NCBI GenBank assembly: GCA_009835735.1 | Contig: VXWX01000079.1 | Coordinates: 1 to 63,082 of the forward strand | From: Acidimicrobiaceae bacterium | GTDB lineage: Bacteria > Actinomycetota > Acidimicrobiia > Acidimicrobiales > Aldehydirespiratoraceae | DNA length: 63,082 bases | Reading direction: 5' to 3' | Part shown: in pieces, positions 25,126-37,347 of the stretch | Layout: every line of letters begins with the position of its first letter | Position numbering within the stretch: position 1 is the first letter of the stretch | The notes under the pieces: model-generated | What the model saw: only the letters and a program-made list of their open reading frames with translations | What the model was told of the DNA's origin: nothing | Database searches by the model: none | Translations under genes and position numbers: made by a program

Positions 25126-25827
25126 ATGTCTGGCATCATCTCCGGTATGGCACTTGCGGATGCCACTCAATCCGGTTCCGACGGCGACCGCGTGGACCTG
25201 GGACTCGCCGACGCGCTGGGCCCTTCGGTCTCCACCGAGGAGTTGTGTCGCGTGGTGGGGAGCCGCGTCCGGGAGTTCCGCCGGTCGCTGAACATGACGA
25301 TGTCGGAGTTCGCGGCCGGCGCCGAGATCTCCCTGGGAATGCTCTCCAAGATCGAGCACGGCCAGAGCGCACCGAGCCTGTCGACCCTCGTGCGGCTGGC
25401 GGCCACCGCCCGCGTACCGGTCACCGCCCTGTTCCGAGGCCTGGACGAGGAGCACGACCTGGTGATCGTGAAGGCGGGCGAGGGTCACGAGATCCATCAC
25501 CAGGGAGGTGGGCCGGGGCGTCTCTACCAGGATCTAGGCAGCCTGCGCGGCCCCAACCGGGTGATCGAGCCGATGATCACCACCATCACGGAGCCGGGCG
25601 GCGTGTTCCCCCTCTACCAGCATCCCGGGGTGGAATTCATCCATGTGCTGGAGGGATCGATCGACTACGGCTACGGCGGGAAGGCCTACCGCCTCGACGC
25701 GGGCGACACCATGCAGATCCACGGCGAGGTGGCCCACGGTCCGGTCGAGCTCGTCAAGTTGCCGATACGTTTCATCTCCATCAAGGTGTACCCGGCCGGC
25801 GAACCGGGGACCGGCGCGGGAGGATGA
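25126..25827 (+). CDS. XRE-family regulator with C-terminal cupin domain
   Basis: This 233-residue transcription factor has an N-terminal helix-turn-helix near residues 45-100 (VREFRRSLNMTMSEFA, then SLGMLSKIEHGQSAPSLSTL). A cupin ligand-binding domain spans about 145-222 (PLYQHPGVEFIHVLEGSIDY, then GDTMQIHGEVAHGP). It probably senses a small molecule of the divergent HyuAB operon and controls it. The start may be the ATG at 25126 or at 25147; neither has a clear ribosome-binding site. Confidence 0.92.
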   Translation: MSGIISGMALADATQSGSDGDRVDLGLADALGPSVSTEELCRVVGSRVREFRRSLNMTMSEFAAGAEISLGMLSKIEHGQSAPSLSTLVRLAATARVPVTALFRGLDEEHDLVIVKAGEGHEIHHQGGGPGRLYQDLGSLRGPNRVIEPMITTITEPGGVFPLYQHPGVEFIHVLEGSIDYGYGGKAYRLDAGDTMQIHGEVAHGPVELVKLPIRFISIKVYPAGEPGTGAGG

Positions 25828-25831
25828 GTCT

Positions 25832-26059
25832 GTGGGCCTGATGCTCATCCTCAGTTGGTTCGGTGAGGGCGAGGTCATTCGCCAGAGCATCGTGCTGTGG
25901 ATCCTGCTGGTCGCCGCGGTCGGGCTCACGGTCTGGGAGTGCCGCGAACGCGGCTACCGGGTCCACATTCTGCTGTGGTGGGTTAGCGTCGTGGCCATCA
26001 CGCACGTGCTGGGGTACATAGTTCTGCGCTTCTTCGTGCGACCGCCCGACAAGGCCTGA
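25832..26059 (+). CDS. small membrane protein, 75 residues
   Basis: This short protein starts at a GTG at 25832, eight bases after GGGAGG (25818-25823). That site overlaps the end of the XRE-cupin gene, so the two are coupled. It has two hydrophobic segments, about 16-31 and 45-65, joined by a short charged loop (ECRERGYR). I do not recognise it. Confidence 0.65.
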   Translation: MGLMLILSWFGEGEVIRQSIVLWILLVAAVGLTVWECRERGYRVHILLWWVSVVAITHVLGYIVLRFFVRPPDKA

Positions 26060-26089
26060 CCCAGCCTCACCGACGCCAGGACCGCAACG

Positions 26090-26488
26090 ATGACCGACCC
26101 GACACCCGAGGAGAGGCCCGCAGGTCTGCTGGGCCGCATCACAGGAATGCAGGGACGCACCAAGTTGCTGATCGCGGTCGGACTGGCACTGGTGCTCGTC
26201 TCGGTGTTCGCCCCGCAGAGCTGCGGGGGCAGGAACGTGGAGGAGGAGCAGGCCATCGCCACTGCCAGCGCTGCGCTGGCAGCCGAGCCCGACGCCTTCG
26301 CACCCGACAAGACAGAGGCCAAGCTGCTGCGCCAGGGCTTCCCGGCCAGGTTGATGTGGGTGGTGGTCTTCACCGTGGACGACCCGGAGGGCGGCCCGGA
26401 GGACTTCCTGCACAAGGCCGACATCTGGGTCAACGCCAACACCGGGGACCTCGAGCAAGTCATAGTCCACAAGCCGGACGAAGAGTAG
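26090..26488 (+). CDS. hypothetical membrane-anchored protein
   Basis: This 132-residue protein has one hydrophobic segment (about 24-41, ending near FAPQSC) and an extracytoplasmic domain of about 85 residues. That domain ends in a strand-rich part (ADIWVNANTGDLEQVIV) that recalls PepSY-like folds, though this is only an impression. The Cys at about 46 is not in a convincing lipobox. It lies 30 bases after the small membrane protein gene. Confidence 0.65.
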   Translation: MTDPTPEERPAGLLGRITGMQGRTKLLIAVGLALVLVSVFAPQSCGGRNVEEEQAIATASAALAAEPDAFAPDKTEAKLLRQGFPARLMWVVVFTVDDPEGGPEDFLHKADIWVNANTGDLEQVIVHKPDEE

Positions 26489-26500
26489 CGCCGCGACGCT

Positions 26501-26560
26501 AATCCTGGGAAAGATTCGCGAACCCTGGGAAAGGTTCGCGACCCCTGGGAAAACGTCCGA
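26501..26560. repeat. three direct 20-bp repeats upstream of the Amt-like gene
   Basis: Three exact-length 20-base units follow each other at 26501, 26521 and 26541. They share CCTGGGAAA, and the first two share the next bases to TTCGCG as well. A weaker partial copy (TGGGAACGTC) starts at 26561. Twenty bases is about two helical turns, so bound proteins would sit on one face of the DNA. The array lies just upstream of an extended -10 sequence (TGCTATTGT, 26583-26590). An activator or repressor site array for the transporter locus is likely. Confidence 0.8.
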
Positions 26561-26614
26561 TGGGAACGTCGGCGCGGTCTGTGCTATTGTCGGCAGGTCC
26601 GGCCGACCGGTCGG
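26561..26614 (+). promoter_or_regulatory. promoter region of the Amt-like operon
   Basis: An extended -10-like box TGCTATTGT (26582-26590) has TGGGAAC (26561-26567) about 17 bases upstream in the -35 position. The latter resembles -35 elements used by ECF sigma factors, and also the preceding repeat units. Downstream is a perfect 12-base palindrome CCGACCGGTCGG (26603-26614) in the expected leader. The start site is not proven. Confidence 0.4.
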
Positions 26615-26643
26615 AGCGGACAAGAAGAATTGGGGGTGAGTCA

Positions 26644-28032
26644 ATGAGCACTGCCATAGTGTTCACCGAGGCTTACTACTTCTTCACCGTCGCAATCATG
26701 TGGCTGCTGCACGTGGGGTTCATGACCTACGAGGCCGGCGTCAGCCGCCGCAAGAACATCATGTCGACGGCGATGAAGAACATCATGACGATTGCCGTGG
26801 TGACGCCGACGTTCTACTACCTCGGCTGGTACGTGTACTTCTGCATGCAGGAAGGTTTGAAGTTCACAGTTTCAGCCGATGGAGCAAGCCCCGCAGGTCT
26901 GACGGGGCTTTACTTCTGCGGCGACGGCTACGGCCTGGCGTGGGACGGCTCCGCGGGACCACACCTCGGCGACAACATCACGGGCGTCTTCTGGGCGGCC
27001 TTCGTGCTGTTCTCCTGGACGACGGGATCGATCATGTCCGGCGCGGTGATCGAGCGCATCCGCATCTCGGCCTACCTGTGGCTGACCGCCCTGATGGGCG
27101 GCTTGGTCTGGGTCGTCGCTGCGGCTTGGGGATGGAGCTACGGAAGCTGGCTGGGCGTGCACTTCGGCTACCACGACTTCGCGGCTTCGATGGTGGTCCA
27201 CGGTGTGGCCGGCATCTTCGCCCTGGGCGTGCTGTACAACCTCGGTCCGAGGATCGGGAGGTACGACAGCAACGGCGGCACGAGAGCTTTCCAGCCCCAC
27301 AACCTGCACCTCACGCTGATGGGGCTGATGATCATCTTCACCGCGTTCTACGCCTTCTACGCGGCGTGCCTCGCCATCACAGCCGACACCACTCCGGGTT
27401 GGGCCAACATCTACTTCAACCCGGCCACGCTGTCGGCCATCACCTACACCATCACGATGGGCTTCGCGGGCGGTTTCGCCGGCGGCTACATCTTCTCCAA
27501 GGGTGATCCGTTCTGGACCATCTCCGGAGGCCTGGCCGGCGTGGTGGCGGTATCGGCGGGCGCCGACATCTACAGCCCCAACCTGGTGCTGATTCTGGCC
27601 TTCTTCTCGGCCGGAGCCTGCTACTACATCGGCGGCTGGCTGGAGAGCAAGGCCCGCGTTGACGACGCCGTCGGCGCAGTGTCGGTCCACGGCTTCATGG
27701 GAATGTGGGGCGCGCTGGCCGTTGGCATCTTCGCCTCCGGGTACCCGACGGGCCCCGCCGGTGTGGAGACCAGCTTCCTGGGCCAGCTCGTGGGTGTGAC
27801 CGCGATCTTCGCGCTGTCCTTCGTGACCGGCTACGTCGCATCGTGGATCCTCAAGAAGCTGAACCTGCTGAGGGTTCCGCCCGAGGTGGAGGTCGAGGGC
27901 CTCGACATGGCCGAGTTCGAGACGGACTTCTATCCGGAGTTCGGCCGGGCCGACGAGCCCATCACCCACGCCGACGGCTCACGGGAGTCGGCCGCAGCCA
28001 CGCTGCGGGCGGAACTCGCCGCCAACCGCTAG
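26644..28032 (+). CDS. diverged Amt/Mep/Rh-family ammonium (or amine) transporter
   Basis: This 462-residue membrane protein (ATG after GGGGGTGAG) has about eleven membrane segments. Against E. coli AmtB it keeps the gate Phe (FSWTTG), the Trp of the outer site, Asp178 (DFAAS), and both pore histidines, His186 (VVHG) and His349 (SVHGFMG). It departs elsewhere: the N-terminal FYGG is TYEAG, DFAGG is DFAAS, and the FNAGS region is FYAAC, placing Cys242 at AmtB Ser219. The cytoplasmic tail is long and acidic. Conduction of ammonium is likely, but the changed outer site allows another amine. No glnK gene follows. Confidence 0.85.
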   Translation: MSTAIVFTEAYYFFTVAIMWLLHVGFMTYEAGVSRRKNIMSTAMKNIMTIAVVTPTFYYLGWYVYFCMQEGLKFTVSADGASPAGLTGLYFCGDGYGLAWDGSAGPHLGDNITGVFWAAFVLFSWTTGSIMSGAVIERIRISAYLWLTALMGGLVWVVAAAWGWSYGSWLGVHFGYHDFAASMVVHGVAGIFALGVLYNLGPRIGRYDSNGGTRAFQPHNLHLTLMGLMIIFTAFYAFYAACLAITADTTPGWANIYFNPATLSAITYTITMGFAGGFAGGYIFSKGDPFWTISGGLAGVVAVSAGADIYSPNLVLILAFFSAGACYYIGGWLESKARVDDAVGAVSVHGFMGMWGALAVGIFASGYPTGPAGVETSFLGQLVGVTAIFALSFVTGYVASWILKKLNLLRVPPEVEVEGLDMAEFETDFYPEFGRADEPITHADGSRESAAATLRAELAANR

Positions 28033-28035
28033 TAG

Positions 28036-28164
28036 GTGTCCGCCTCATGGCTGCAGCTCGTCGGAGGACTTGCCGTCATGTACTTGGTGGTCGCAGCCGC
28101 CGGGTACTGGGGCAAGCGCAGGCGAGCGCAGCTGGAGGCCCAGGATCATCGAACCGACAACTAA
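28036..28164 (+). CDS. single-TM microprotein 1 of the Amt locus (42 residues)
   Basis: This GTG-started frame begins three bases after the transporter stop. It encodes 42 residues with one hydrophobic segment (about 5-25, QLVGGLAVMYLVVAAAGYW) followed by a basic tail (GKRRRAQLE). The length, tight spacing and membrane character support a real small subunit or regulator. It was too short for ordinary gene calls and has no recognised family. Confidence 0.55.
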   Translation: MSASWLQLVGGLAVMYLVVAAAGYWGKRRRAQLEAQDHRTDN

Positions 28165-28190
28165 CAACGTTCAGAACTAAGGAGGACTGA

Positions 28191-28415
28191 ATGAACAGCT
28201 TCCCCTTCGACAGTTGGGAACAAGGCGTAGAGCTGGCCGGCCCGTATTTCACGTGGGCTGAAGGCCCCGTCTTCGGTGCCGGCCCCTCGGTCGTCCTCGC
28301 CATTATCGGGATCGCGGTCTCCGTGATCTCCGCGATTCTGGTGACGACCCGCGAGGACAAGCTACTGAACCACGCGGCCGACCGGCTCGCCGACAAGTAC
28401 GGCTCGGAGGACTGA
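28191..28415 (+). CDS. single-TM microprotein 2 of the Amt locus (74 residues)
   Basis: A strong site (AAGGAGGACTGA) precedes the ATG. The 74-residue protein has an aromatic, acidic N-terminal part, one membrane segment at about 34-51, and an amphipathic basic/acidic tail (TTREDKLLNHAADRLADKYG). It resembles no family I know. Position and spacing argue for function together with the Amt-like transporter. Confidence 0.75.
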   Translation: MNSFPFDSWEQGVELAGPYFTWAEGPVFGAGPSVVLAIIGIAVSVISAILVTTREDKLLNHAADRLADKYGSED

Positions 28416-28416
28416 C

Positions 28417-28542
28417 ATGGCTCGTCGTAAGCAAATCGAGTTCCAGGGAAAGCACGGCCACGACAAGGGCATCGAGATGGCGTTCATCGTCTTCACGATC
28501 GCCTGCATCGTCTTCACGATTATCGCCATCCAGGCTTTCTGA
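28417..28542 (+). CDS. single-TM microprotein 3 of the Amt locus (41 residues)
   Basis: The ATG at 28417 lies one base after the stop of the previous gene. Its GGAGG (28406-28410) sits inside that gene, in the same GGAGGACTGA context as the previous start. The 41-residue product has a basic, polar N-terminus (MARRKQIEFQGKHGHDKG) and one C-terminal membrane segment (about 21-41) ending in the membrane. It is probably a small subunit; the family is not recognised. Confidence 0.7.
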   Translation: MARRKQIEFQGKHGHDKGIEMAFIVFTIACIVFTIIAIQAF

Positions 28543-28566
28543 CACCTGACTCACCCCATTCAAGGA

Positions 28567-28605
28567 GGCTGGCGCCGTGCCGCACTGAGCGGTGCGGCGC
28601 CAGCC
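28567..28605 (+). terminator. hairpin terminator after the Amt locus
   Basis: A long GC-rich stem, GGCTGGCGCCG...CCGC pairing with GCGG...CGGCGCCAGCC, has two mismatches and a five-base loop (ACTGA). It follows the last microprotein by 24 bases. There is no T-run, as is common in high-GC actinobacteria. Confidence 0.7.
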
Positions 28606-28633
28606 CCTGCATCTGGGCCCCTAGCCTGACGCC

Positions 28634-29044
28634 GTGAGGATCCCTCGTAAGCGGATCGCGCAGGCTTGCGCGATCGTTGCAGCCGCGGCGATGTTCTTGC
28701 CGTGGCACACGACTGCATCAGCGAGCGGCACGGAATCGGTGCAGGGGGTCGCCGTCAATGACGGCCAACTGGTCCTAGTCGTGAGCCTGGTCACCGCCGG
28801 GCTCGTCCAAGTGGGCTGGCGACCGGCTTGGATCGGCGTCGGCTTCGCCGGTGCTGTCGCTATCCGGAGGATTCTTGACGGCGGGACCGACCCGGCCGTG
28901 GGGCTCTGGATAGCGGCCGCGGTCTGTGTCGTGGCCACCGTCCTACTGATCTGGGAGATGTTCGCTGGTGTCTCCGCATCCGGTGCCGACGACAAACCAC
29001 CGGGGCACGGACTGTCTGGGCCGTTGGGCAGACGGAGGCGCTGA
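28634..29044 (+). CDS. hypothetical membrane protein, 136 residues
   Basis: This GTG-started protein has a basic start (MRIPRKRIAQ) and about four hydrophobic segments: 9-24, 45-60, 66-80 and 92-110. A polar tail rich in Gly, Pro and Arg follows. It contains no motif I can name. It lies between the terminator of the Amt locus and the Tdm gene. Confidence 0.6.
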   Translation: MRIPRKRIAQACAIVAAAAMFLPWHTTASASGTESVQGVAVNDGQLVLVVSLVTAGLVQVGWRPAWIGVGFAGAVAIRRILDGGTDPAVGLWIAAAVCVVATVLLIWEMFAGVSASGADDKPPGHGLSGPLGRRRR

Positions 29045-29114: not shown

Positions 29115-31508
29115 ATGACCACGACCGCACCGGACCAGCCCAGGGTCCTGGTGCCGGGGCTGTTGATGCTCGGACCGGGAGTCGAGCGCTACCGGGTGAC
29201 CGGCGGCGGCGCCACCGTCCTGGCCCTCGACGCCGGTGACGAGCTGGAGATCGTCGATCCCGAGGGCCGCCAGCCATGCGAGCTGGTGGCATTCGACGCC
29301 AACGGTCGATCCGATCCCAGCCTGCTCGGCCCCACTGATGCCTCAGGGAGCGGCAACGGCAGCCGGGCCGGCTCCACCGAAGACCCGGCCGCAGTGGGCA
29401 TCCTCTCCGCGGAGATTCAGGACGCCCGCCGGGTGCGGGTCGGGTTGGAACGCGTCGGCGTGGACCTGGCCGCGCTGGGGGCCGCGACCCCATTGAGGGT
29501 CCTCGGCGACGACACCACCGTTGGCGCCCGGACCAGGGTGGTGGCCCATGACGACGTCACCTGCGTGATCGTCGCGCCGGGCGAGTCGATGTCAGCCCAT
29601 GGCGGCTCTCCCCCCACCGACCTGATCGTCTACGTGCACCGCCGCGATGCAACCCGCTCCTCCAGCGAACCCCTGCTTCCCGCGCCGCTGGCCGATCCCA
29701 GCCAGGACTTCATCGTGAAGCACAGCACCGCCAGGGCGTACGAGGTCGCTAAGGGCGACTGGTTCCAGGTGGTCGATGTGGAAGGTCGGCAATGCTCTGA
29801 CTTCCAGTGCTTCGCGACAGCCGATCTCGACACCGGGCTGGACGTGAGCCTCGACGCCACGATCACCCGCTCCCTCATGGGGGCGACCTGTCCGGCGCCC
29901 GGCCTCTACTCCAAGTTCTACAACGCCAAGATGCAGCCCCTGGTCGAGGTGGTCCAGGACACCGTGGGCCGCCACGACACCTTCAACACCGCCTGCAACG
30001 CCCGCTACTACGAGGAGCTGGGCTACCCCGGCCACATCAACTGCACCGACAACATCAACGACGTCCTCAACCCCTACGGAGTGGCCCGCCGCCGGGGCTG
30101 GGAGGCCATCAACTTCTTCTACAACACCAACCTCGACGACCACAACCAGATCTACCTCGACGAGCCGTGGTCCCGTCCGGGCGACTACGTCCTGCTGCGA
30201 GCTCTGGAGGACCTGGTGTGCGTGTCCACCTCATGCCCCGACGACATCGACGCGGCCAACGCCTGGAACCCCACCGACATCGCGGTGCGGGTCTACCCCT
30301 CTGCCAACCGGTTCAAGAAAGCGACGGCGATCCGCATGACCGCAGACTCCGAGGCACAGCTGACCAAGGAGACGGGGTTCCATCCCCGCACCTCCGCTCT
30401 GACCCGCAGCTTCGGCGAGTACTGCGGCTACTGGCTGGCCGATTCCTACACGGCCCACGGTCCTATCGAGGAGTACTGGGCCTGCCGGCAGGCGGCGGCG
30501 GCCATCGACCTCTCCCCGCTCCGTAAGTACGAGGTCACCGGCCCCGACGCCGAGCTGCTGATGCAGACCTGCGTCACCCGCAACGTCCGCAAGCTCGCCG
30601 ACGGCCAGGTGTCGTACACGGCCATGTGCCACCACACCGGCGGCATGATCGACGACGGCACCGTGTTCCGGCTCGGGCGCGAGAACTTCCGCTGGATCGG
30701 CGGCCAACTCGGGTACAGCGGGGTCTGGCTGCGGGAGCAGGCCCAGCGCCTGGGGCTGCAGGCATGGGTGCGCAGCTCCACCGAACAGCTCCACAACCTC
30801 CAGGTCCAGGGGCCCAACAGCCGTCAGATCCTCGAACAGGTGATCTGGACCCGTCCCGACCAGCCGACGATCACGGAGCTGGGATGGTTCCGGTTCGCCA
30901 TCGCCCGTATCGGCGACTACGACGGGATCCCGCTGGTGGTGTCTCGCACCGGCTACACCGGCGAGCTCGGCTACGAGGTGTTCTGCCACCCCTCGGACGC
31001 CCCTGCGGTGTGGGACGCCATTTTCGAGGCCGGCGCGGAGCACGGCCTGGTGCCCATGGGCCTGGCCGCTCTCGACATCCTGCGCATCGAGGCCGGCCTC
31101 ATCTTCGCCGGGTACGAGTTCTGCGATCAGACCGACCCCTACGAGGCCGGCATCGGCTTCACCGTGCCGCTCAAGACCAAGGAGGACGACTTCATCGGCC
31201 GGGACGCCCTCCTCAAGCGCCGTGACAACCCGCAGCGGCGGCTAGTAGGCCTGGAGGTGGACGGAGGCGAGCCCGCCTCCCACGGCGACGGTGTGTACGC
31301 CGGCCGCAACCAGGTGGGCGTCGTCACCAGCGGCACCATCTCACCCACACTGCGCAAGAACATCGCCCTGTGCCGCATGGCGGTGGAGCACGCCGAGATC
31401 GGCACGGCCGTGGAGATCGGCAAGCTCGACGGTCACGAGAAGCGGATCGCGGCCGAGGTCGTGCGGTACCCGTTCTACGACCCCGACAAGACCCGCGTTC
31501 GCTCCTAG
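29115..31508 (+). CDS. tdm: trimethylamine N-oxide demethylase (DUF1989-GcvT)
   Basis: This 797-residue protein has the architecture of marine TMAO demethylase: an N-terminal DUF1989 domain and a C-terminal GcvT (aminomethyltransferase) domain. A short DUF1989-like segment lies near residues 14-50. The main DUF1989 domain spans about 198-396 (EGRQCSDFQCF, FNTACNARYYE, VSTSCPDD). The folate-binding GcvT domain spans about 430-797 (SRTGYTGELGYE, then MGLAALDILRIEAG). The known reaction is TMAO to dimethylamine plus formaldehyde, which the GcvT part can place on tetrahydrofolate. The start is the ATG at 29115. Tmm 5 kb away supports the call; other DUF1989-GcvT proteins cannot be fully excluded. 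Confidence 0.88.
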   Translation: MTTTAPDQPRVLVPGLLMLGPGVERYRVTGGGATVLALDAGDELEIVDPEGRQPCELVAFDANGRSDPSLLGPTDASGSGNGSRAGSTEDPAAVGILSAEIQDARRVRVGLERVGVDLAALGAATPLRVLGDDTTVGARTRVVAHDDVTCVIVAPGESMSAHGGSPPTDLIVYVHRRDATRSSSEPLLPAPLADPSQDFIVKHSTARAYEVAKGDWFQVVDVEGRQCSDFQCFATADLDTGLDVSLDATITRSLMGATCPAPGLYSKFYNAKMQPLVEVVQDTVGRHDTFNTACNARYYEELGYPGHINCTDNINDVLNPYGVARRRGWEAINFFYNTNLDDHNQIYLDEPWSRPGDYVLLRALEDLVCVSTSCPDDIDAANAWNPTDIAVRVYPSANRFKKATAIRMTADSEAQLTKETGFHPRTSALTRSFGEYCGYWLADSYTAHGPIEEYWACRQAAAAIDLSPLRKYEVTGPDAELLMQTCVTRNVRKLADGQVSYTAMCHHTGGMIDDGTVFRLGRENFRWIGGQLGYSGVWLREQAQRLGLQAWVRSSTEQLHNLQVQGPNSRQILEQVIWTRPDQPTITELGWFRFAIARIGDYDGIPLVVSRTGYTGELGYEVFCHPSDAPAVWDAIFEAGAEHGLVPMGLAALDILRIEAGLIFAGYEFCDQTDPYEAGIGFTVPLKTKEDDFIGRDALLKRRDNPQRRLVGLEVDGGEPASHGDGVYAGRNQVGVVTSGTISPTLRKNIALCRMAVEHAEIGTAVEIGKLDGHEKRIAAEVVRYPFYDPDKTRVRS

Positions 31509-31522
31509 GGCCCAGCGTAGAG

Positions 31523-32407
31523 CTAGCGGCGCAGGACCTTCGGGACGGTGGTTCCGAAGTCGGACGGCAGCTTGACGATCTTCACGCCGCACTCCCGCAT
31601 GAGCTTCACTTTCTCGGCGGCCGACTCCCCGACAGTGGAGACGATGGCGCCTGCATGTCCCATGGTGCGCCCCTTGGGCGCGGTCAGGCCGGCGATGTAG
31701 CCCACTACCGGCTTGTGCATGTGGTCGCGGGCGTACTGGGCGGCCTGGGCCTCCTGCAGCCCCCCGATCTCACCGATCATCACGATCGCCTCGGTCTCGC
31801 CATCGGCTTCGAAGCGCTTGAGGTGATCGAGGAACGAGCTGCCGTTGATGGGGTCGCCCCCGATCCCGACGCTGGTGCTCACCCCGATTCCGACCGCCTT
31901 GAGCTGTGACGCCGCCTCGTATCCGAGCGTCCCCGACCGGCTGACGATGCCGACCGGGCCCCGCTCGTAGATGTGGGGAGGCATGATGCCCATCATGGCC
32001 CGGCGCGGGCTGATCACCCCGGCGCAGTTCGGTCCGATCAAGCACATCCGGCTGGCGTGCTGGTAGCGCCGCTGGTAGCGCTTCACCTGGATCATGTCCT
32101 GTACCGGGATGCCCTCCGTGATGCACACGCAGTACTCGATCCCAGCGTCGGCCGCCTCCATGATGGCGTCGGCCGCGAACGGTGGCGGCACGAACACCAC
32201 GCTGGCGGTGGCCTCGGTGGCCGCCACGGCCTGCTTCATGGTGTCGAAGACCCTCACGCCGCAGTGGGTGTCGCCACCGCGGCCGGGCGTGACGCCTCCC
32301 ACCACATTGGTGCCGTATTCGAGCATTTCAGCCGTGTGAAAGCTGGCAATGCGGCCGGTGATGCCCTGGACCAGCACCGGAGTCGTCTCATCGAGGATGA
32401 TGCTCAT
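31523..32407 (-). CDS. mtkB: malate-CoA ligase (or succinate-CoA ligase) alpha subunit
   Basis: This 294-residue subunit has the CoA-binding Rossmann domain (VLVQGITGRIASFHT), IGPNCAGVI, VSRSGTLGYEA and the phosphorylated His251 in TMGHAGAIVS. Sequence alone does not separate malate thiokinase from SucD. The same-operon malyl-CoA lyase favours malate-CoA ligase, which makes malyl-CoA from malate, ATP and CoA. Its ATG overlaps the beta-subunit stop by one base. It is convergent with tdm, 14 bases apart. Confidence 0.85.
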   Translation of the reverse strand: MSIILDETTPVLVQGITGRIASFHTAEMLEYGTNVVGGVTPGRGGDTHCGVRVFDTMKQAVAATEATASVVFVPPPFAADAIMEAADAGIEYCVCITEGIPVQDMIQVKRYQRRYQHASRMCLIGPNCAGVISPRRAMMGIMPPHIYERGPVGIVSRSGTLGYEAASQLKAVGIGVSTSVGIGGDPINGSSFLDHLKRFEADGETEAIVMIGEIGGLQEAQAAQYARDHMHKPVVGYIAGLTAPKGRTMGHAGAIVSTVGESAAEKVKLMRECGVKIVKLPSDFGTTVPKVLRR

Positions 32408-33579
32408 CAGGCTGCGCTCCGTTCGGTAGCTGCAGCCGCCTTCGTACCCGCCTCGGCCAGCGAGTCGGCGGTGATCACTGGAACCTGGGCATCAGCCAGG
32501 ATGCGCCGTCCCTCCTCGACGTTGGTGCCCGACAGTCGCACCACCACCGGCACCGAGGGATCAAGCTGCTGAAGTGCCTGGACAACACCCTCGGCCACCC
32601 AGTCGCACCGGTTGATGCCGGCGAAGATGTTCACCAGCACGGCTTCCACGTTCTCGTCGGAGAGCACCAGCCGGAAAGCCTTCAGCACGCGCTCGGGGGA
32701 TGCGCCCCCGCCGATGTCGAGGAAGTTGGCCGGCTCGCCTCCGGCGTGCTTGATCATGTCCATGGTGGCCATGGCCAGACCGGCACCGTTGATGATGCAG
32801 CCGATGTTCCCTTCGAGCCCCACGTAGCTGAGTCCCCGGTCGACGGCCGTCCGCTCACGGGGGTCCTCCTGGGACTTGTCCCGCAGTTCCGACACGTCCT
32901 GGTGGCGGAACAGGGCGTTGTCGTCGAAGGTCATCTTGGCGTCGAGCGCCAGAAGGCGGCCGTCGCCGGTGACCGCCAGCGGGTTGATCTCCAGCATGGT
33001 GGCGTCGAGCTCGCCGAAGATCCGGTAGCAGCCGGTCATCATCTGGACAGCCTGGGGCACGAGGCTCGCGTCGAGCCCTACCGCGAAGGCGATCTCGCGG
33101 GCTTCGAACGCCTGGAGCCCGACGGCCGGCTCCACGTTGACGCGTACGATGGCATCCGGGTCGCGGGCCGCGATCTCCTCGATCGCCATACCACCCGAGG
33201 CTGAGGCCACCACCATCACCCGCTCGGCGGATCGATCGAGGACGAACCCCAGATAGATCTCGCGCTCGGCGGAGACGGCCGCCTCCACGTACAGCCGGTA
33301 CACACCCTTGCCCCGCTCGCCGGTCTGGTGGGTGACCAGCCGCTTGCCCAGCAGCTCGTCGGCGGCCTCCCACACCTCGCGCTCGTCATTGCAGAGCTTG
33401 ATGCCCCCGGCCTGACCTCGCGCGCCGGAATGGATCTGGGCCTTCACTACCCACCGTTCGCCGCCGATCTCCGAGGCTCGGTAAGTCGCCTGCTCGGGGC
33501 TGTAGGCAAGCCCTCCTTCCGGTATGGACACGCCGTAGTCGGCCAGGATGGCCTTTGCTTGGTACTCGTGGATCTCCAT
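32407..33579 (-). CDS. mtkA: malate-CoA ligase (or succinate-CoA ligase) beta subunit
   Basis: This 390-residue ATP-grasp subunit begins [17 protein letters not shown]. It shows [59 protein letters not shown] and [13 protein letters not shown] with [16 protein letters not shown]. It pairs with the alpha subunit downstream. The malate assignment rests on the malyl-CoA lyase gene 50 bases upstream on the same strand. Confidence 0.88.
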
Positions 33580-33630
33580 GAACGCCCCTCCTTGCGCTCT
33601 CCATTCACCGAACCGCCCGCGACTAGACGG

Positions 33631-34575
33631 TCACGAACTCCTGCCCTCGATGGCCTCGGCCGTCTCGACCACGTTGCGCGCCATCCGGGCTGACGCGGCG
33701 TCGATCATGCGCCCGTCGAGCTGGGCCGCGCCCCGGCCGGCCGCGGCGGCTTCCTCCAGCGCCCGCAGCACGCGGCGCGCCTGGTCGACCTCGGCCTCCG
33801 GAGGTGTGAACACGTCGTTGGCCAGCTCGATCTGCGAGGGATGTATGGCCCACTTGCCGTCGTAGCCGAGGGCTGCGGCCCGGCGGGCGCCCGCAAGGAA
33901 CCCGTCCGGATCGCCGAAGTCTCCGAATGGACCGTCGATGGCCCGCAGACCGTTGGCACGGCAAGCCACCAGCATGCGAGAAAGGGCCGAGTGCCACTGG
34001 TCTCCCGGATAGTCGGGGTTGAGCCCTCCGATGGAAATTGTTCTGGCTCTGCAAGAAGCTGCATAGTCAGCCACGCCAAAATGAAGCGCTTCCAGCCGCG
34101 GGCTCGAGGCCGCCACCGCCTCGACGTTGGCCATGCCCAGGGCGGTCTCCACCAGCGCCTCCACCCCGATCCGGTGACTGAGTCCCATCGCCTGCTCGAG
34201 CTGGGTGAGAAGGGCGTCGACCGCATAGATGTCACCAGGCACGCCCACCTTGGGAACGAGGACCGTGTCGAGGTGGGCTCCAGCCTGCTCGACCACGTCG
34301 ATCAGATCGCGGTACATGTAATGGGTGTCGAGCCCGTTGACCCTTACTGAGATCGTCTTGTTGGAACCGCGCCAATCGACATCGCCCAACGCCTCGATGA
34401 CGTTGCGTCGGGCCGCTTCCTTCTCATCAGGCGCCACCGCGTCCTCAAGGTCCAGGAACACGTAGTCGGCCCGGCTGGCCGCCGCCTTCTCGAACAGTTC
34501 GGGCCGCGACCCCGGCACAGCCAGCTCGCTGCGGTGCAGCCGGCGCCTCGCCTCGGTGATCTGATGATGGCTCAT
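33631..34575 (-). CDS. mcl: malyl-CoA lyase (HpcH/HpaI, CitE-like)
   Basis: This 314-residue TIM-barrel lyase splits L-malyl-CoA into acetyl-CoA and glyoxylate. It has RLHRSELAVPGSRPELFEKA at the start, then VFLDLEDAVAPDEK with metal-binding acidic residues, TVLVPKVGVPGDI, GVEALVETALGMANVE, LHFGVADYA and GKWAIHPSQIE. The LHRSELAVPG opening is characteristic of Mcl. It is the first gene of the mcl-mtkA-mtkB operon and diverges from the aminotransferase gene. Confidence 0.93.
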   Translation of the reverse strand: MSHHQITEARRRLHRSELAVPGSRPELFEKAAASRADYVFLDLEDAVAPDEKEAARRNVIEALGDVDWRGSNKTISVRVNGLDTHYMYRDLIDVVEQAGAHLDTVLVPKVGVPGDIYAVDALLTQLEQAMGLSHRIGVEALVETALGMANVEAVAASSPRLEALHFGVADYAASCRARTISIGGLNPDYPGDQWHSALSRMLVACRANGLRAIDGPFGDFGDPDGFLAGARRAAALGYDGKWAIHPSQIELANDVFTPPEAEVDQARRVLRALEEAAAAGRGAAQLDGRMIDAASARMARNVVETAEAIEGRSS

Positions 34576-36003: not shown

Positions 36004-37347
36004 ATGACACGAGTGGCTGTCATCGGCGCTGGGCCGTGCGGCCTGGCACAGTTGCACGCCTTCGCCAGCGATTCGGGGGCGGGCAGCCCGTCGGCGCCTG
36101 AAGTCGTCTGCTACGAGAAGCAGAGCGATTGGGGCGGGCTCTGGAACTACGACTGGCGCACCGGTCTGGACGAGCACGGCGAGCCCTGCCACGCCAGCAT
36201 GTACCGCTACCTGTGGTCGAACGGCCCCAAGGAGTGCCTGGAGTTCGCCGACTACGGCTTCGAGGAGCACTTCGGCAAGCCGATCGCGTCGTTCCCGCCC
36301 CGCGAGGTGCTGTACGACTACATCATCGGACGGGCCACGCGCAGCGGTTTCCGCGACCAGATCCGCTTCAACCACGCGGTGCGGCGCGTCAGCCGCTCCT
36401 CGGGCGGCGGTTTCACCGTCACCGCCCACGATCAGGCCAACGACACCGACACCAGCGAGGACTTCGACCACGTGGTGGTGTCCACCGGCCATTTCTCCAT
36501 CCCCAACATGCCCCACTACCCGGGCTACGAGACCTTCGGCGGAACGTTGATGCACGCCCACGACTTCCGCGACGCCGTGCAGTTCAGCGGCCGGGACGTG
36601 CTCGTGATCGGATCGAGCTACTCGGCCGAGGACATCGCCTCGCAGCTCTGGAAGTACGGAGCCCGCTCGGTGATCTGCACGTCGCGCAGCGGGCCCATGG
36701 GCTTCGACTGGCCCGACGGCATCACCGAGAGGCCCATCCTCACCCATGTCGACGGCCGCACCGTGCACTTCGTCGACGGCTCGACCGCTGAGGTTGACGC
36801 CATCGTCTCCTGCACCGGGTACCTGCACTACTTCCCGTTCATGGACGACGAGCTGCGCCTGGTGACCGCCAACCGCCTGGCCACCTCGATGCTGTACCGC
36901 GGGGTCGTGTTCCAGCCGGAGAACCGGATCCTCTACCTGGGTATGCAGGACCAGTGGTACACGTTCAACATGTTCGACGCCCAAGCCTGGTACGCCCGAG
37001 ACGTGATCCTGGGCCGCATCTCCCTTCCCGACGCCGCGGAACAGGCCCGCTGGATAGAGGAGGCCCAAGCCGATGAGGACGCGCTGGCGGACGACTACGC
37101 GTGCATCGACTTCCAGGGCGCCTACACGCAGGACCTGGTGGACCAGACCGACTATCCCGACTTCAACACGCCTCTGGTCAACCAGATGTTCTACGACTGG
37201 AAGAAGCACAAGAAGCAGTCGATAATCGGCTACCGCGACCACGGTCACACTTCCCCGCTCACCGGCACGGTGGCACCCATCCACCACACCGCCTGGGAGG
37301 ATGCGCTGGACGACTCGCTGGAGTCCTACCTGGCCGGCTCGACCTGA
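36004..37347 (+). CDS. tmm: trimethylamine monooxygenase
   Basis: This 447-residue flavin-containing monooxygenase has the FAD motif VIGAGPCGLA, the FMO signature FGGTLMHAHDF (178-188) and the NADPH motif VIGSSYSAEDIA. The stretches MYRYLWSNGPKECLEFADY and SFPPREVLYDYI closely match marine bacterial Tmm proteins as I recall them. The enzyme uses NADPH and oxygen to make TMAO from trimethylamine, and also oxidises some sulfides. TMAO is the substrate of Tdm encoded at 29115. It has its own promoter and seven-G ribosome-binding site. Confidence 0.93.
   Translation: MTRVAVIGAGPCGLAQLHAFASDSGAGSPSAPEVVCYEKQSDWGGLWNYDWRTGLDEHGEPCHASMYRYLWSNGPKECLEFADYGFEEHFGKPIASFPPREVLYDYIIGRATRSGFRDQIRFNHAVRRVSRSSGGGFTVTAHDQANDTDTSEDFDHVVVSTGHFSIPNMPHYPGYETFGGTLMHAHDFRDAVQFSGRDVLVIGSSYSAEDIASQLWKYGARSVICTSRSGPMGFDWPDGITERPILTHVDGRTVHFVDGSTAEVDAIVSCTGYLHYFPFMDDELRLVTANRLATSMLYRGVVFQPENRILYLGMQDQWYTFNMFDAQAWYARDVILGRISLPDAAEQARWIEEAQADEDALADDYACIDFQGAYTQDLVDQTDYPDFNTPLVNQMFYDWKKHKKQSIIGYRDHGHTSPLTGTVAPIHHTAWEDALDDSLESYLAGST

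Follow-up and report, generated by a model that had tools for sequence, protein, structure and literature searches.

Few transporters have been studied as closely as the Amt proteins, for which the usual description is a homotrimer under the control of soluble PII proteins; the partner of E. coli-type AmtB, GlnK, is one of these. Elsewhere, one-helix accessory subunits such as KdpF, AcrZ, and CydX stabilize or tune a large membrane partner; we know of no such subunit for the Amt/Mep/Rh family. Here, we analyze a 63,082-nucleotide (nt) stretch of DNA from an Acidimicrobiaceae bacterium (contig VXWX01000079.1, assembly GCA_009835735.1; hereafter the window), in which an amt gene is followed by three small frames, mp1, mp2, and mp3. 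An earlier interpretation made from the letters alone (the sequence-only reading) had proposed all three products as dedicated small subunits of the transporter. From the comparisons described below, we consider it fairly probable that a methylated-amine-linked clade of Amt proteins carries ammonium and/or methylammonium and works with mp2 as its dedicated one-helix subunit.

In Ruegeria, Methylocella, and other bacteria, the amt or amtB of methylated-amine clusters has already been published as an ammonia/ammonium transporter (PMC5520151, PMC7574528). The window resembles these clusters in having amt among methylated-amine genes, and plasmid-borne Amts of the Roseobacter type fall in its clade. 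It differs in the small partner, which goes unmentioned in the portions of these two papers that were available; in the plasmid records, the next frame is annotated as a hypothetical protein. The window Amt shares the Amt profile and the conducting pore residues with E. coli AmtB, but its neighbors are one-helix frames and its own genome has no match to PII. sP36 of Methanosarcina mazei is likewise a small protein acting on an Amt, but according to the accessible text it has 61 residues, lacks a transmembrane (TM) helix, and works with GlnK1 (PMC10714827). The sensor kinase Ks-Amt5 is among the nearest PDB Amts by sequence and shares part of its extra cation site, as given in the accessible text of PMC5764959, with the window Amt, which differs in having no fused histidine kinase, in the loss of D50 and T51, and in a His at the Q24 position. 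The likeness to KdpF, AcrZ, and CydX, a tiny membrane subunit beside a large partner, is a comparison by description only.

Searches of one open-licence library, which does not cover most subscription journals, yielded no account of a membrane microprotein partner of Amt. By term look-up in the text available, the review PMC10433425 contains none of “small protein,” “accessory,” and “heterotrimer,” and amt is absent from the main text of PMC13390433 (2026, on R. pomeroyi regulation); the accessible part of PMC9870897 has nothing on methylated-amine-linked amt.

Results and Discussion

A one-helix protein accompanies a distinct Amt clade

Using the Amt protein alone as the query, we recovered 39 loci from the genome collection (designated below by L numbers). 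One of these, L008, ends within the Amt and is untestable for mp2. The remaining 38 all have mp2 or its diverged relative, complete in 36 and partial in two (L005, which has a run of N, and L028, which ends early); for the Actinobacteria among them, the count is 32 of 32 testable. Of the relatives that could be tested, 31 of 38 have mp1 in its place and 31 of 37 have mp3. Neither was found in L035 to L040, which come from Planctomycetes, Acidobacteria, and Cyanobacteria, and mp1 was also missing from L026. In L035 to L040, mp2 is represented by a diverged relative, known by its motif, its place, and its collective profile scores. The nearest relatives by Amt are Acidimicrobiia, nearly all of whose loci have mp1; many of them are presumably sponge-derived bins, going by the bin names. 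One locus labeled as Acidobacteria, L005, has an Amt 96% identical to that of the window and may come from a mixed bin.

The window Amt matches PF00909 at 215.7 bits (cut-off 23.2) and falls below the cut-offs of the TIGR00836 amt subfamily (228.7 vs. 343.3 bits) and of the TIGR03644 marine Amt subtype (168.7 vs. 514 bits). In a tree of 72 Amts (FastTree, midpoint-rooted), the 50 partner-linked Amts, including those of the Roseobacter type, split from 22 others, which comprise 18 ordinary paralogues and stretches of four solved proteins; the branches on either side of this split have support values of 0.84 and 1.0. Left out of both the tree and the residue table were L005, L008, L031, L033, L041, and L132, whose Amt is incomplete or broken, and two of the 20 ordinary Amts.

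The residue table confirmed D178, H186, H349, Cys242, and DFAAS, the residues to which the sequence-only reading had drawn attention. The window Amt retains the pore residues responsible for binding, stripping, and passing the amine (F123, W164, D178, H186, F238, D341, and H349; in AmtB numbering, we take these to be F107, W148, D160, H168, F215, D310, and H318), and the AmtB-type pore residues are retained in 50 of 50 clade members. The position of AmtB Ser219, Cys242 in the window, is Cys in all 50 clade members and Ser in all 18 ordinary paralogues, and the position of AmtB Asn216, Tyr239 in the window, is Tyr in 39 clade members and Leu in 11. A His precedes the D160 position in 48 of the 50, and a Gly of DFAGG is replaced by Ala or Cys in every one. 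TYEAG, also singled out earlier as distinctive, has to be dropped, as its Glu is present in 18/18 ordinary paralogues and has no diagnostic value. The putative outer binding site is altered in the clade Amt (Cys for Ser219, Tyr or Leu for Asn216), and we take the Ser219 and Asn216 replacements as variation within the Amt/Mep/Rh family.

Searches that started from mp2 gave a similar pairing. Across 396 actinobacterial genomes, the mp2 profile returned 23 places at E ≤ 0.01. The five matches below E 1e-4 each lie behind a clade Amt, in the window's own genome, in one genome of the same family, and in L074, L075, and L076; around the other 18 places, no Amt was found within ~3 kb. L074, L075, and L076 are new loci (Amt identities of 62%, 62%, and 47%), and the first two also have mp3-related frames. 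For comparison, 20 ordinary Amt loci of the same family were taken, two of which had no downstream sequence; the mp2 profile matched none of the other 18 below E 1, and a TM-like small frame started ≤260 nt downstream in two. We also ranked 1300 frames, drawn from 19 loci outside the profile training set and from the 20 ordinary Amt loci, with an actinobacterial-only mp2 profile. The frame behind the clade Amt holds 16 of the top 17 places, at E < 1e-5 for three frames only and at 0.008 to ~6 for the remainder; the L102 frame exceeded the length limit and was excluded, and the top 17 are not all TM-like by our filter, which makes a P value for the ranking that counts 19 target frames a rough one. 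We propose an mp2 family, defined as the profile-supported one-helix protein encoded immediately after a Cys-clade Amt. As judged by profile scores, Actinobacteria support it strongly; in Planctomycetes, Acidobacteria, and Cyanobacteria the support is only collective, and for the Roseobacter group it is lacking.

Clade Amts occur in 20 of the 51 genomes of the window's family. In the window's class, the Amt was found in three of 296 genomes at E ≤ 1e-100. In the phylum of L040 (Cyanobacteria), it was found in four of 244 at E ≤ 1e-90, the query's own counted, with an mp2-like frame next to it in all four, and in the phylum of L037 in one of 246, namely the query's own. Thus, the system of Amt and small frames is common in the window's family and patchy beyond it.

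Selection and topology of the small proteins

Codon comparisons indicate that mp1, mp2, and mp3 are under codon-level purifying selection. The median pairwise ratio of nonsynonymous to synonymous rates (dN/dS) is 0.49 for mp1, 0.32 for mp2, and 0.35 for mp3, with 0.17 for amt and a wider spread among single pairs. The pooled ratio of nonsynonymous to synonymous differences (pN/pS, equal-length pairs) is 0.45 to 0.60 in frame vs. 0.88 to 1.48 in the two other frames. None of the three, nor any of their relatives, passed a curated cut-off among the Pfam and NCBIfam small-protein families scanned; in one of these scans, one of the ten queries was a meaningless 33-residue stretch of L001.

By the positive-inside rule, the N-terminus of mp1 is predicted to be outside in 20/20 cases and that of mp2 in 25/26 (one tie), and the N-terminus of mp3 is predicted to be inside in 20/20. 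In L019, a signal-peptide-like hydrophobic stretch lies in frame ahead of the SFPYDSW of mp2, which fits the outward orientation. Structure prediction with AlphaFold gave, for mp2 alone, a 9-residue and a 40-residue helix with a mean predicted local distance difference test score (pLDDT) of 80. For a read-through chain of the Amt, mp1, mp2, and mp3 of L010, it gave long Amt-type helices followed by one long helix for each small protein (mean pLDDT 63.3, predicted template modeling score 0.70). The two runs differ in alignment depth and come without coordinates, and we drew no docking inference from them.

The check that the sequence-only reading had set for itself, on conservation and selection of the small frames, gave a clear outcome: all three stand behind Amt in actinobacterial relatives, under purifying selection. 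Given this conservation, the purifying selection, and the tie to one Amt clade, the simplest reading is that the small frames encode dedicated subunits. To this extent, the original proposal holds; its picture of a uniform set does not. Across the sampled clade, mp2 or a diverged relative is present, whereas mp1 and mp3 were found in Actinobacteria only.

The clade is linked to methylated-amine genes

Neighboring genes were called by set thresholds on tblastn matches to Tdm, Tmm, DmmC, GmaS, and MgsC within the flank. Methylated-amine genes (tdm, tmm, dmm, gmaS, or mgs) lie near 31 of the 39 clade loci found by Amt similarity, near seven of eight plasmid loci (L109 and L133 being close to each other), and near five of six further loci (L134 to L139, L139 negative). 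The same test gave 0/19 for ordinary Amt loci, with ~8 kb on each side where the contig allowed; in two of these (L154 and L169), the Amt was not re-found at threshold. The negatives among the 39 are L008, L028, L032, L035, and L037 to L040, and the flanks of L028 and L032 hold a sarcosine-oxidase-alpha-like gene only. Repeats were not counted (L140 is L029; L142, L144, L146, and L147 are L037, L038, L034, and L032; L141 is L040), and L143 and L145 have no Amt. The link to methylated amines, toward which the position of amt before tdm had pointed earlier, recurs among neighboring genes in several phyla.

Curated models additionally identified tmm in L030 and L137, the latter belonging to the same phylum as L040, and type III glutamine synthetase, which we take to be the GmaS family, in L036, L034, L134, and C80 of the window's own genome. 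In C80, an mgsC homologue lies ~2 kb from gmaS (tblastn identity 75%; NCBIfam gave no match to it at E ≤ 1e-40), and the own genome holds tdm, tmm, gmaS, and this homologue. Of the 51 family genomes, 20 have a clade Amt, and gmaS exceeds its cut-off in 19 of these vs. 6 of the 31 others (Fisher 6e-8, species not independent). The partner link extends beyond the methylated-amine link: Planctomycetes retain the small frame without such neighbors.

A tblastn search of 72,556 plasmid records with the Amt found 12, of which nine were examined. Eight of the nine have an annotated hypothetical protein of 58 to 71 residues behind the Amt; the remaining record, L132, has its Amt match broken into three pieces, with no annotated gene. 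The small protein of a Pseudomonas plasmid matches the Planctomycetes/Acidobacteria mp2 profile (E 1.4e-6). The Roseobacter small proteins are positional counterparts whose homology is unproven. Four of them, taken as a group, gave hhalign probabilities of 1% with the mp2 profile and 29% with the mp3 profile, and homology was not accepted.

Proposed mechanism and alternatives

If the favored explanation is right, the distinct Amt clade would serve methylated-amine catabolism together with the mp2 encoded directly behind it. The aromatic N-terminus of mp2 would face outward and its charged tail the cytoplasm, and mp2 may pack on the Amt trimer, stabilizing it or tuning its selectivity. Methylammonium, along with ammonium, could thereby be captured or recaptured and fed into the Tdm/GmaS route. 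Actinobacterial members would have gained mp3 and, in nearly all Acidimicrobiia loci, mp1, with mp1 predicted to be oriented like mp2 and mp3 the opposite way. The frames and their conservation, the pairing with the Amt, the residue changes, and the gene neighborhoods are observed; complex formation, the substrate, and the role of each small protein are what we infer here.

Several results count against this explanation. The structure prediction that the sequence-only reading had called for was made, but the small proteins received no confident placement: in the single read-through chain, 10-residue pLDDT means run from 32 to 69 over them. Outside Actinobacteria, single scores against the actinobacterial mp2 profile are weak (E 0.008 to 12), with L107 not among the matches listed, and the mp2 profile compared with four Roseobacter-type small proteins gave an hhalign probability of 1%. 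The search for neighboring methylated-amine genes was negative at four Planctomycetes loci (as were longer stretches around two of them, L142 and L144), at L040 (a 5.5-kb contig), at L139, and at Thioclava L106. The own genome gave no match to DmmC in a search that lacked a positive control. Finally, the loci and genomes are related, so the counts are not independent.

A bolder version, tentative and in our view somewhat doubtful, would make mp2 the constant, so far unannotated TM subunit of the whole multi-phylum clade, which would then be the first hetero-oligomeric Amt. With its aromatic N-terminus placed at the outer vestibule, mp2 might, together with the Cys/Tyr change, convert an ammonium channel to a transporter of methylammonium (and ammonium) in bacteria that use methylated amines.

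The small proteins may instead be regulators of Amt, gates or inhibitors that replace GlnK/PII, with plain ammonium as the substrate; we think this unlikely, though it deserves attention. The absence of glnK, noted earlier for the window, extends to the whole 3.29-Mb, 84%-complete source assembly, which has no match to PF00543 (PII), and 13 of 14 control genomes were positive. Of the 38 genomes behind L003 to L040, 14 have no PII match in assemblies that are incomplete. There is also a precedent of a kind in sP36, the soluble 61-residue regulator of Methanosarcina AmtB1, although it has no TM helix in the accessible description (PMC10714827). However, the other 24 of the 38 genomes have PII alongside at least mp2; a complementary pattern is absent, and we rejected PII replacement as the whole story.

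Another option, which we regard as highly improbable, is that the Amt is an ammonium or methylammonium sensor (transceptor) and that the small proteins pass its signal on. By sequence, the window Amt matches 8qpf, 8qj3, and 6eu6 best in the PDB; we take 6eu6 to be the Ks-Amt5 sensor. When the full extra cation site of Ks-Amt5 was tested (Q24, E31, N47, D50, T51, T109, and T112), E30, N46, S129, and S132 of the window Amt matched part of it, as far as the accessible text of PMC5764959 describes the site. Yet E30, N46, and S132 are kept in 18/18 ordinary paralogues, where S129 is Ser (15) or Thr (3), and clade members have Thr, Ala, Ile, or Val at the D50 position. No kinase is fused to the Amt or present among the neighbors scanned. 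With most of the shared site equally conserved in ordinary paralogues, the sensor reading was rejected.

Least credible to us is that the small frames are mere neighbors co-transcribed with amt and acting elsewhere, for example with Tdm or the product of the nearby gene orf5: orf5 and two small upstream genes, up65 and up132, are likewise conserved neighbors in Acidimicrobiia with no evident transport link, but mp2 remains beside Amt where tdm, orf5, and others were not found, and the blind mp2 search gave no match below E 1e-4 away from a clade Amt.

Layout of the window

The features of the locus are collected in Table 1. The small frames lie where they had been placed before, with the predicted lengths and one helix each. 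They are not gapless as first described, being separated by 3 nt (amt to mp1), 26 nt (mp1 to mp2), and 1 nt (mp2 to mp3). The same initiation sequence, GGAGGACTGA, does precede both mp2 and mp3, its second copy overlapping the mp2 stop. No Shine-Dalgarno sequence was seen upstream of the mp1 GTG, and translation of mp1 is probably coupled to that of amt. The terminator proposed behind mp3 corresponds to a very strong hairpin, but there is no T run and the terminator scan found no intrinsic-terminator match; it is perhaps a U-less terminator or a stabilizer of the transcript end.

Table 1. Features of the amt region and linked methylated-amine genes in the window.
Feature	Position	Strand	Remarks
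amt, Cys-clade Amt/Mep/Rh transporter, 462 residues	26644..28032	+	ATG start, TAG stop; PF00909; tree and residue table
mp1, 42 residues, one helix, predicted N-out/C-in	28036..28164	+	GTG start 3 nt past amt stop
mp2, 74 residues, one helix, predicted N-out/C-in	28191..28415	+	ATG start; motif MN(S/T)xPxxxW...(Y/F)T(F/W) at N-terminus
mp3, 41 residues, one helix, predicted N-in/C-out	28417..28542	+	ATG start; cytoplasmic motif KQIEFxxxxxHDKxxE
Strong GC hairpin 3' of mp3	28563..28608	+	-44.2 kcal/mol, z -6.25; T run absent
amt leader: small hairpin and GGGGGTGAG	26585..26643	+	By-eye upstream comparison; fold z -2.0
orf5, hydrophobic 136-residue protein, no known family, between mp3 and tdm	28634..29044	+	Conserved neighbor
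tdm, trimethylamine N-oxide demethylase	29115..31508	+	NF053776, 1191.6 bits (cut-off 1100); start codon picked by eye
tmm, trimethylamine monooxygenase	36004..37347	+	NF058570, 730.1 bits (cut-off 675)

Upstream of amt, the leader looks alike by eye in some of the Acidimicrobiia loci and different in others; Rfam gave no match to it. At 26504-26552, CCTGGGAAA occurs three times at a 20-bp period, by eye in close relatives only, and is a possible regulator site. Two more small genes lie at 25862-26488: up65 (~65 residues, hydrophobic) and up132 (132 residues, weak resemblance to PepSY). Most Acidimicrobiia loci keep the pair upstream of amt; in L032, however, the two match downstream on the other strand, as does the first of them in L034. 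A helix-turn-helix (HTH)-cupin regulator gene at 25126-25827, kept in many tdm-linked loci, possibly regulates the region.

Downstream, orf5 still stands behind mp3 in L027 and L029, although tdm there lies upstream; we treat orf5 as a neighbor and do not put it forward as a subunit. Beside tdm, at 31523-34575, are coenzyme A (CoA)-ligase genes and a CitE-like lyase gene. The CoA-ligase beta subunit exceeds the cut-offs of malate- and succinate-CoA ligase models alike, and these genes could point to C1 assimilation of the serine-cycle type.

Significance

Our limited literature search found no dedicated methylammonium transporter for the methylated-amine cycle; if the favored explanation is true, the clade Amt with its one-helix partner would be a candidate route of methylammonium uptake for that cycle. 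Clade Amts on plasmids of cultured Roseobacter-type bacteria make the system experimentally accessible. A one-helix partner conserved across the whole clade would, if true, change the picture of Amt as a homotrimer regulated by PII.

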